Positions 33,739-36,724 of a stretch of DNA of 36,724 nt are shown here, in pieces. Source of the DNA: an uncultured Gammaproteobacteria bacterium (GTDB taxonomy: Bacteria > Pseudomonadota > Gammaproteobacteria > PS1 > Pseudothioglobaceae). Location of the stretch: positions 1-36,724 of the forward strand of contig CALBNC010000050.1 in NCBI GenBank assembly GCA_937896195.1, read 5' to 3'. Every line of letters begins with the position of its first letter. Within the stretch, counting starts at the first letter, position 1. The position numbers were made by a program, and so were the translations under genes. The notes under the pieces were generated by a model. That model did no database searches and was not told the DNA's origin. It was given only the letters and a program-made list of their open reading frames with translations.

Positions 33739-35101
33739 ATGGAATGTCGGTTAGCCACATATGCACCGCAACACTGGCAATATAGCCCAGCGCAATCACC
33801 GGCATCCACTTAAGATGCGAGGCGAACGTATATACACCTTTTGACTGGCCCATCAGTGCTACACCTGCTGCACTACCGACAGACAGTAAACTACCACCAA
33901 CACCTGCAGTAAGCGTTACTAACAGCCATTGTGCGTTTGACATTTCAGGACTCATGGTTAGCACTGCAAACATGACAGGAATATTATCAACTACGGATGA
34001 CAACAAGCCAATCAAAATATTTGCATAAGTAGGACCTAAAGAGGCGTACATTGCCTCAGAAGTAAGCGCTAAATAGCCCATAAAACCAAGTCCACCAACA
34101 CTCGCAATAACACCAAAGAAGAATAACAGCGTATCCCACTCAGCGCCAGCTACCTTTCTAAACACATCAAATCCATCTTCTTGAATGTGTTTCTCAGCTT
34201 TACGAATAAAGAATGCAGCAATCATCAGATAGCTTAAACCGGTCATCATGCCCATCGCTGGTGGCAAGTGTAGGAAGCTATGAAAACTAACGGCGGTTAC
34301 GATAGTCAGCATAAATAGCGCCACAATAAATAAACCACCATGTTTAATATCAATATGTTTTAGTTTAGCGCCCGCAGTTTCATCTTTAATAGCAAAGTGC
34401 ATAATCGATGCTGGCACAACAAAGTTAATCAACGATGGAATGAATAATGAGAAGAATTCATTGAATTCCAAAATACCTTTTTGCCAAACCATCAACGTCG
34501 TAATATCACCAAACGGACTAAACGCGCCACCTGCATTCGCAGCAACTACGATGTTAATAAAAGCAATAGAAACAAAGCGTGGATTACCTACACCCACGGC
34601 CATTACCACTGCACCCATTATTAGTGCCGTGGTTAAGTTATCAGCTACTGGGGAGATGAAGAACGCTAAAAATCCTGTTATCCAGAATAATTGTCTAAAC
34701 GTATAGCCTTTATTAATCAACCAAACTTTAAGTGCTTCAAAAATCAACCTTTCACGCATGGCTTCAATGTATGTCATGGCGACGAGTAAAAATAAAAATA
34801 GCTCAGCATATTCCAAAATGTTGTGACGCAAAGCGATTTCAGCTGCATGCGGCAAACCATTTGATGCATAAACCCAGCCAATTAAACCCCAGATTAGACC
34901 TGCCACCAAAATAACAGGCTTGGATTTTCTAAAGTGGGTAAATTCTTCCACCATGACTAAAATATATGCGATTACAAACAAAGCTAATGCTGTATAACCC
35001 ACCCAATGGTTGGTTAAATCAAGCCTGTCAGTAACCACTAGATCTGTTGCAAATACAATGTTTGGTAATAAAGTTATCAATAATAATAAAGATTTAGTCA
35101 T
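33731..35101 (-). CDS. nhaD: Na+/H+ antiporter NhaD family
   Basis: 456 aa polytopic; ISPVADNLTTALIMGAVVMAVG, AANAGGAFSPFGDITTLMVW, SSVVDNIPVMFAVLTM. Confidence 0.9.
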   Translation of the reverse strand: MTKSLLLLITLLPNIVFATDLVVTDRLDLTNHWVGYTALALFVIAYILVMVEEFTHFRKSKPVILVAGLIWGLIGWVYASNGLPHAAEIALRHNILEYAELFLFLLVAMTYIEAMRERLIFEALKVWLINKGYTFRQLFWITGFLAFFISPVADNLTTALIMGAVVMAVGVGNPRFVSIAFINIVVAANAGGAFSPFGDITTLMVWQKGILEFNEFFSLFIPSLINFVVPASIMHFAIKDETAGAKLKHIDIKHGGLFIVALFMLTIVTAVSFHSFLHLPPAMGMMTGLSYLMIAAFFIRKAEKHIQEDGFDVFRKVAGAEWDTLLFFFGVIASVGGLGFMGYLALTSEAMYASLGPTYANILIGLLSSVVDNIPVMFAVLTMSPEMSNAQWLLVTLTAGVGGSLLSVGSAAGVALMGQSKGVYTFASHLKWMPVIALGYIASVAVHMWLTDIPFV

Positions 35102-35894
35102 GGTTTATCCTGATGAGTTGAGCACCCTGTGCATCATTAAGTGTAATTTGATCATCCTCATGCGCAATTTCTATCGTAGCTAGACATAAAGATTTTGCGT
35201 CTAATTTTACACGACGAACAACAACTCCTGACGCTTTAGCTGACTTCGAACTCAAAGAAAATAGCTTGTCACCTACCTTTAAATCATCTTTGCATTCAAA
35301 CATGCGAAGTCTGCGCTTAGATTTACCCAAATAATGCAAACGTGCCACCACTTCCTGGCCAGGATAACAACCCTTGGTAAAACTTACACCTACTTCATCA
35401 ATATCCAAATTTAACAACTGCGGTACAAATTGCTCAGAAGTATCTAGAGTTACTTCAGCAATGGTATTTTCAATGCAAGCTTTTTCCCAGGTACTCTCAT
35501 CCGCCAACTCAACAGCATCTAGCGTTTCAACCAAGGCCACAGACTGCTGATCATTGAGCTTAAAAGCACCCTTAAAATCTTCATCAACAATACCCAGCTG
35601 GATCATGTCATTACTTAAATCACTAATCTGTACATCCGACATCATCTTAAACATGGTTAGTCGCTTAATGATTACATCTGCTAAATCCATCGGAAATGAC
35701 AAATAAAAGCTTTCATTTTTTTTCATCACCCATATCAGCGCAATAATCTTACCCTGATGCTGACAATAAGCATTTAGCTGAACAACCCCTTCTTCTAAAG
35801 TGTTAATATCATTTGAAAACTGTCCTTGTAAGAATGTTTTCACGTCATTACCAGTTAGTTGTAACAGGGCACGTTTTGTAAGTTGAGTAATCAT
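35094..35894 (-). CDS. ygfZ: YgfZ/GcvT-domain folate-binding protein
   Basis: 266 aa; diagnostic KGCYPGQEVVARLHYLGKSKRRL. Confidence 0.93.
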   Translation of the reverse strand: MITQLTKRALLQLTGNDVKTFLQGQFSNDINTLEEGVVQLNAYCQHQGKIIALIWVMKKNESFYLSFPMDLADVIIKRLTMFKMMSDVQISDLSNDMIQLGIVDEDFKGAFKLNDQQSVALVETLDAVELADESTWEKACIENTIAEVTLDTSEQFVPQLLNLDIDEVGVSFTKGCYPGQEVVARLHYLGKSKRRLRMFECKDDLKVGDKLFSLSSKSAKASGVVVRRVKLDAKSLCLATIEIAHEDDQITLNDAQGAQLIRINHD

Positions 35895-35949: not shown

Positions 35950-35979
35950 TTACCTGAGCAGGCCTTGCCTGCTCAGAAA
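35950..35979. repeat. REP-like hairpin repeat, left copy
   Basis: TTACCTGAGCAGGCCTTGCCTGCTCAGAAA; perfect 10-bp stem CTGAGCAGGC/GCCTGCTCAG with CTT loop; identical to 36657-36686. Confidence 0.93.
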
Positions 35980-35980
35980 G

Positions 35981-36646
35981 TTAAAACTCAAAATCGTCAA
36001 GTTTTAGGGTGTTTCCTTTGTTATCAGCAAAGGTGATTGAGGCTTGTTTGATGAATTTTTTGTACTCGATTAAACCATCAGCTTCCTCAATAATAGCTTG
36101 TATTTCAACCGGATTACAAATGCTTTCGCCCAGTTCTTGATCTAAGTATTCAAAAATACTTGATTTAACCAAATTAATACTTGGGTCAATTCTATGATGC
36201 TTATGATTTAGATTAATATATGCAGATACTGTTGGCAATGCAAAGTCACCACTCAGATGCGTGGCTTTAAATTTTCCTTGAAACAGACTGCCACTTCGTT
36301 TTTCTTGTTGATTAAAATACATAGTATAAGAGGTTCCCAGCTTTTGCATAAACTGCGAAATACCGTTATCAACCTCTTGCTTCAAGAGTAAATGATAATG
36401 ATTGGGCAGAAGGCTATACGCAATAATACTCACCAATTGACCGCCGTCACCGACAATACCACTATCTTTGTGTTTGTTTCTCTGATTGTTAAAAAACTTT
36501 GAGCTATCTGTTGTGTTTAAGACTTGCATTCGATTAAAAAAGAAATATTGTTGGGCTTTATTGCTAAATATATTACGCTTATCCACCCCGCGGTTAAACA
36601 CGTGATAATACTCACCATTTACAAATTCTATATTTCTAATACTCAT
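35981..36646 (-). mobile_element. REP-associated tyrosine transposase (RAYT / TnpA_REP, Y1/IS200-like HUH)
   Basis: 221 aa; EYYHVFNRGVDKRNIF, HUH motif LLPNHYHLLLKQ, ISQFMQKLGTSYTMYFNQQEKRSGSLFQGKFKATHL. Confidence 0.9.
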
Positions 36647-36656
36647 ACTTGTTATG

Positions 36657-36686
36657 TTACCTGAGCAGGCCTTGCCTGCTCAGAAA
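36657..36686. repeat. REP-like hairpin repeat, right copy
   Basis: Identical 30-nt direct copy of 35950-35979, just upstream of the transposase start. Confidence 0.93.
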
Positions 36687-36693
36687 AAGGACG

Positions 36694-36722
36694 AAAAAAA
36701 ACCCCCAACCGAAGTTGAGGGT
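36694..36722 (-). terminator. Rho-independent terminator of a minus-strand gene beyond the right edge
   Basis: Minus strand ACCCTCAAC-TTCG-GTTGGGGGT (9-bp stem with one G-T pair, UUCG tetraloop) followed by TTTTTTT. Confidence 0.85.
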
Positions 36723-36724
36723 TT

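Follow-up and report, generated by a model that had tools for sequence, protein, structure and literature searches.

A transposase gene in a marine, sulfur-oxidising bacterium of the SUP05/Thioglobus group is bracketed by two identical hairpins, and the arrangement is quite probably a REPtron-like unit, in which a RAYT-like single-strand HUH transposase, inherited vertically, is combined with a small REP-like hairpin family of its own. Such units, and single hairpins as well, come and go at fixed places. A bolder reading, which we put forward tentatively, is that a loop-reading, stem-tolerant HUH enzyme swaps hairpin for hairpin, so that scattered copies, even in essential genes, would take on, in place, the stem that belongs to the resident transposase. 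To our knowledge, few domesticated bacterial transposases lack a settled function, and RAYT/REP systems belong to these few. In the lineage described here, a constant loop stands in place of the GTAG foot, the hairpin families are small and easily counted, and copies are found in frame inside housekeeping genes. Since there are small, countable families, in-frame copies and orthologous sites where one stem has given way to another without a change in length, the switching mechanism is directly testable. The locus is a good place for the study of hairpin exchange and would represent a new branch of the REP/RAYT repeat systems.

The window locus and its transposase

The window (the whole stretch of DNA that was analysed, 36,724 nt) is one whole contig, C50, of the 1.42-Mb source genome; the features of the locus are collected in Table 1. 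The 30-nt copies (TTACCTGAGCAGGCCTTGCCTGCTCAGAAA) are direct repeats that bracket the transposase gene. Each is made up of a 10-bp stem and a 3-nt loop, reading CTGAGCAGGC-AAG-GCCTGCTCAG on the coding strand, and folds with -11.8 kcal/mol as single-stranded DNA (z = -5.7 relative to shuffled sequences). The first-pass annotation had described a Y1/HUH reading frame lying between identical 30-nt hairpins of the same orientation, with the transposase stop 1 nt from the left copy, and the coordinates, the fold and a match to Pfam Y1_Tnp (E = 1e-8, above the cut-off) all agree with that description. The contig ends directly past the repeat, within the upstream terminator (window 36687-36724). Since G001, a single-contig genome, has the same arrangement, the position of hairpins and gene at a contig end is no assembly artefact.

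Table 1. Coordinates of the hairpins, the transposase gene and the borders of the locus
Feature	Positions	Strand	Remarks
ygfZ-like gene	35094..35894	(-)	Conserved right border of the locus; own copy free of hairpins, copies in G001 and G009 with one
Downstream (3') hairpin copy	35950..35979	(-)	Stem 35954-35963 / 35967-35976, loop 35964-35966; starts 1 nt past the transposase stop
RAYT-like HUH/Y1 transposase ORF, 221 aa	35981..36646	(-)	From ORF list, Pfam, alignment and fold search
Upstream (5') hairpin copy	36657..36686	(-)	Identical to the 3' copy; stem 36661-36670 / 36674-36683; 10 nt from the transposase ATG
Intrinsic terminator of the upstream gene	36699..36724	(-)	Left border of the locus; conserved in relatives with and without the element

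The 221-aa protein has the motifs H83-Y-H85 (NHYH) and F122-Q123 and a catalytic Y143 (Y-I-N-L-N). In the alignment, the catalytic positions, including H83, H85 and Y143, are invariant across 30 homologues, and the tyrosine motif is Y---N followed by H, Y, F or N, never by P. The NCBIfam REP transposase model (NF047646) matches all 30 homologues and the IS200 model four of the 30, weakly; for the window protein itself, the REP transposase model gave 28.3 bits, below the 80-bit cut-off. A PDB search by sequence alone returned nothing usable, and the relationship emerged from the fold search: an AlphaFold model based on the 30-sequence alignment (pLDDT 87.6) had as its top match the E. coli RAYT with its REP hairpin (4er8; E = 1.1e-5), with the IS608 and ISDra2 transposases next. 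The predicted fold and the catalytic residues alike support a RAYT-like transposase. An origin from a phage or plasmid was rejected, as the matches were merely partial and 22-41% identical. Residues ~45-70, N-terminal to the HUH strand, are poorly predicted and hypervariable, and it is in this region that the in-gene hairpin is positioned in L069, L077, L081 and the Patescibacteria relative L040; at a guess, these residues might help to read the stem.

Stems and loops of the hairpin families

In the source genome, a search for the 30-nt repeat with up to three mismatches recovered the window pair and two copies with one mismatch each (C64:18010 and C103:2755), both of them intragenic, while the reversed control pattern gave no match under the same conditions. 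These copies bear out the expectation that the unit has a hairpin family of its own, recurring in the genome. The core, GGCAAGGCC, has 18 matches in the genome, compared to one for its reversed control, and ten of these matches lie at the centre of a hairpin whose stem measures ~10 bp. The hairpins belong to three families: A (TGAGCAGGC), B (TGATACGGGC) and C (GGTGACAGGC). All three have the core GC-AAG-GC in common and differ in their stems. Two additional transposases, ~59% identical, are found in the source genome, with no near-identical copies, and each of the three paralogs is bracketed by its own stem family. Because there are only ~4 copies per stem family and ~10-11 in the genome (11 hairpins in all), this is not a high-copy REP system with BIME arrays. 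Most of the dispersed copies are intragenic, not intergenic. The proposal of a complete REPtron-like unit in the first-pass annotation stands as regards the RAYT-like fold and residues, the unit's own hairpins and the empty sites described below, whereas the copy number, the recognition mark and the genomic setting are not canonical.

Searches covering 12 genomes from the genus and 83 from the order gave homologues in 23 genomes belonging to eight genera. Three loci are conserved. Locus 1 is upstream of ygfZ and locus 2 precedes aspartokinase; at locus 3, the unit separates rsgA from the gene that follows it. The stems at locus 2 vary among orthologues (TGATACGG, TAGAACGG, GTATTATAG and CGTCATAG). 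Upstream and downstream stems were compared over a 9-nt arm with at most one mismatch, counting only those loci for which both flanking hairpins were found (n = 21), and they match in 20 of these; in 400 shuffles, the mean was 2.2 and the maximum 7. (The sole mismatched locus is L079, where the start codon in the ORF call is doubtful.) Syntenic orthologues carry different stems, yet both flanks change together. Protein pairs with at least 80% identity share the stem in nearly all cases and those below 80% have different stems in nearly all; since stem sharing splits at ~80% protein identity, the stem follows the protein tree. Despite their differing stems, the proteins cluster by locus.

Could the hairpins simply be terminators or mRNA-stability elements of the neighbouring genes, unrelated to the transposase? 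Their strong stems, directly past a stop codon and upstream of a gene, would be appropriate for such a role. However, the flanking hairpins have no T-tract and matched no Rfam family, and the terminator scan flagged just the separate terminator at the contig end. Furthermore, the stem is tied to the transposase lineage, and the dispersed copies are intragenic and track the presence of the transposase. An arrangement invariant among relatives had been named as the mark of plain terminators; what was found is a conserved place at which the stem changes between orthologues, on both sides together. It is thus very improbable that the hairpins are elements of this sort.

Constant across the hairpins are the loop and the pairs that close it, GC-AAG-GC (GC-CCG-GC in a few members); CTCAGGTAA, which the first-pass annotation had suggested as a recognition motif, is not one. 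GTAG, GTAA and TTAC were also rejected as recognition motifs, being unconserved across the stem families. The absence of GTAG by the window hairpin, which had been pointed out previously, holds more generally: GT[AG]G occurs anywhere near the foot in 9 of 69 hairpins, and no flank position is conserved. The GTAA beside the hairpin is, in relatives, part of a longer palindrome (TTACCTGAGC...GCTCAGGTAA), and it is no conserved tetranucleotide.

There is some variation on this theme. In L071, L075 and L079, the loop is CCG/CGG instead of AAG/CTT, with the closing GC pairs retained, and L070 and L079 have a common stem with different loops. The hairpin centre in L069 is wholly different (GGTTCGACC), and a recognisable hairpin is absent from L068 and L074. 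In L007, L035, L063, L031 and L070, the palindrome extends several bp beyond the ~10-bp stem in a copy-specific manner (up to 20 bp in L063), which gives the impression that one arm served as the template for the other. The upstream flank of L027 and of L067 has a head-to-head inverted pair of hairpins of the same family, which is REPIN-like. In the distant homologues L040 (Parcubacteria) and L042 (Staskawiczbacteria), hairpins of their own are found around the transposase gene as well as within it, and these have a different constant core, TCTCCGA. Their sequences suggest that the rule of a variable stem and a constant loop is wider than this family.

Gain, loss and possible exchange of hairpins

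Empty sites are present at loci 1, 2 and 3 in relatives without the transposase. At locus 1 of G007 and G008, the terminator is followed by ygfZ with nothing between them, which is the empty site that the first-pass annotation had proposed to look for. At locus 3 of G008, the rsgA stop abuts the next start; the neighbouring gene is 98% identical, and the source genome has the whole hairpin-gene-hairpin unit there. At locus 2 of G011 and G005, there is a lone hairpin of the expected stem type and no transposase. Overall, the core density is 11.7 per Mb where the transposase is present and 3.3 where it is absent (one-sided Mann-Whitney p = 2.6e-7, uncorrected for phylogeny). Since copy numbers are low, recent mobility is not directly seen.

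The whole-unit insertion at locus 3, together with the same architecture at three loci, would also be expected of an autonomous insertion sequence of the IS200/IS605 type, in which hairpin, transposase and hairpin move as a unit and lone hairpins are remnants. The class 1 members of that family have a Y---Q motif and multiple near-identical copies in a genome. The likeness to IS608 and ISDra2 includes the Y1 HUH chemistry and the subterminal hairpins, and these were the second-best structural matches. However, the copies within the genome show too little identity to each other, recent near-identical ones being absent, and there is no adjoining tnpB; the loci are conserved across species; the transposase dN/dS is low (0.05-0.14 where computable), indicating purifying selection; and the motif is Y---N, with structure and profile closer to RAYT. 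An insertion sequence is therefore an unlikely explanation. The strong purifying selection and the single copy per locus might instead reflect a transposase domesticated for autoregulation or DNA processing only, which would still bind its flanking hairpins, located in the 5' leader and at the stop codon, having lost the ability to move them. This is rather unlikely as well, as the lone copies, the empty sites and the turnover of stems imply past exchange.

Lone hairpins with the stem of a transposase are dispersed elsewhere, often in frame within genes. (The hairpin-bearing genes mpl, purL, yfiH, ygfZ and fmt-like were named by sequence resemblance, not database annotation.) Three of those in the source genome are in frame, within mpl, purL and yfiH; in the complete genome G001, hairpins lie within yfiH, mpl, ygfZ and an fmt-like gene. 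The transposase gene itself has its own cognate hairpin in frame in L029, L030, L069, L077 and L081. Plain 23-nt insertion was rejected as the origin of the intragenic hairpins: the net change is 0 in mpl, +3 in yfiH, +6 in ygfZ and +15 nt in purL, the last measured against the closest empty relative. In ygfZ of G001 and G009 (L026, L156/L028), the hairpin is of family C and in frame. The two genomes are distinguished by a compensatory pair, with GGTGACA/TGTCACC in one and GGTGATA/TATCACC in the other, and the sequence around the hairpin in G009 looks imported from a G001-like donor. A 358-nt segment of the fmt-like gene, including the hairpin, is identical in L083 (G004) and L084 (G001), from otherwise different species, reflecting either recent transfer or contamination.

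The mpl site is constant in length among 34 orthologues. Its hairpin is of type A in G000, G001, G002 and G009, GTGCAAGC in G006, GACCCAAGC in G076, B in G011 and near-B in G077; in the remaining orthologues, it is decayed or absent. There is no transposase gene at the mpl locus, yet four different stems are found at this one site. In four of the eight genomes (G000, G001, G006 and G076), the mpl stem is that of the resident transposase (permutation p = 0.06, which is weak alone), and the B-type copy in G011 agrees with the lone B hairpin at its locus 2. The four non-matching hairpins may be relics of transposases that have been lost. The mpl hairpin types also co-vary with two flanking allele types, and recombination of gene segments may have helped the stem to change.

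How might hairpins be exchanged? By analogy with TnpA_REP (PMC8266576), the enzyme would bind the extruded hairpin on single-stranded DNA via the loop, the closing pairs and part of the stem, and Tyr143 would cut beside it. The enzyme could then copy, move or exchange hairpins. A new stem would arise at the transposase gene and spread to the partner copy and to some dispersed copies, with the older hairpin replaced in place. The joint turnover of both flanks and that of the mpl copy at constant length suggest an exchange between hairpins in addition to insertion; this is the least certain step. Alternatively, the matched stems might be brought about by replacement of the whole hairpin-transposase-hairpin cassette, through recombination or re-insertion, and not by switching in place. 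Stem classes do track protein clades, and horizontal exchange is present in the group (the identical fmt-like segment in G001 and G004 and the G001-like ygfZ stretch in G009), so that part of the stem concordance could have this origin. However, the grouping of proteins by locus cuts across the stem differences, and at mpl a single site changes its stem although there is no cassette to be replaced. As a full account, cassette replacement is possible but doubtful.

Relation to known REP and RAYT systems

Canonical REPs have a GT[AG]G tetranucleotide at the foot and usually number more than 100 per genome. The present system resembles RAYT/REP systems (the REPtrons, including E. coli TnpA_REP and group 3 of Stenotrophomonas and Pseudomonas) in the HUH/Tyr single-strand fold, in having its own hairpins on both sides and dispersed elsewhere, in its vertical inheritance and in the differing hairpin classes at syntenic genes. 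It differs from them in having no GT[AG]G foot, a constant GC-AAG-GC loop, ~10 copies as opposed to hundreds and an NCBIfam score below the cut-off. The kind is thus known, while the loop-marked, low-copy, largely intragenic form in a divergent RAYT lineage appears to be new, no description of it having been found in the literature searched, the coverage of which was incomplete. TIRYTs, on the other hand, have long terminal inverted repeats, often with GGGGWSAS; here, the gene is flanked by self-complementary hairpins, in one orientation or the other, whose loop is constant, and no GGGGWSAS-like motif is common to them.

In group 3 REPs, positions in the loop are critical (Corneloup 2021, PMC8266576). 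Syntenic RAYTs flanked by different REP classes have been described in Pseudomonas and Stenotrophomonas, an 'orthoswitch' whose mechanism was stated to be unknown, and several of the orthoswitch REPs have a common constant inner core, GGCTTGCC (Nunvar 2013, PMC3686654). If true, in-place exchange of hairpin for hairpin would supply the molecular mechanism that has been lacking for the orthoswitch.

The class 2 signature is Y---NP (PMC6006769), from which the present proteins depart by the absence of P. By motif only, they resemble the consensus of subclass 2.1 of TnpA_Y1 (Bertels group 1), namely in NH[YF]H, FQ, Y[IV]-x-L-N and the presence of a C-terminal extension, the P of Y---NP being replaced by H or Y. 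REP-like sequences were not found in subclass 2.1 (Quentin 2018, PMC6006769), whereas here they are present at nearly every locus; hairpins have now been assigned to a part of TnpA_Y1 that resembles a subclass reported without any. RAYTs of subclass 2.4 have REPs inside tnpA (Quentin 2018, PMC6006769), and in this they are like the five transposase genes with cognate in-frame hairpins. However, the insert there is between HuH and Y, while here it is before the HuH motif or C-terminal, and there is no GTAG foot.

REPs have been reported inside genes; in recB, two Xanthomonas species have different ones at approximately the same position (Di Nocera 2013, PMC3733652). The hairpins described here are like these intragenic REPs and the Rickettsia palindromic elements (PMC3733652) in being in frame within conserved genes, but in this case there is a cognate transposase, whose stem can be matched by the one at a common site.
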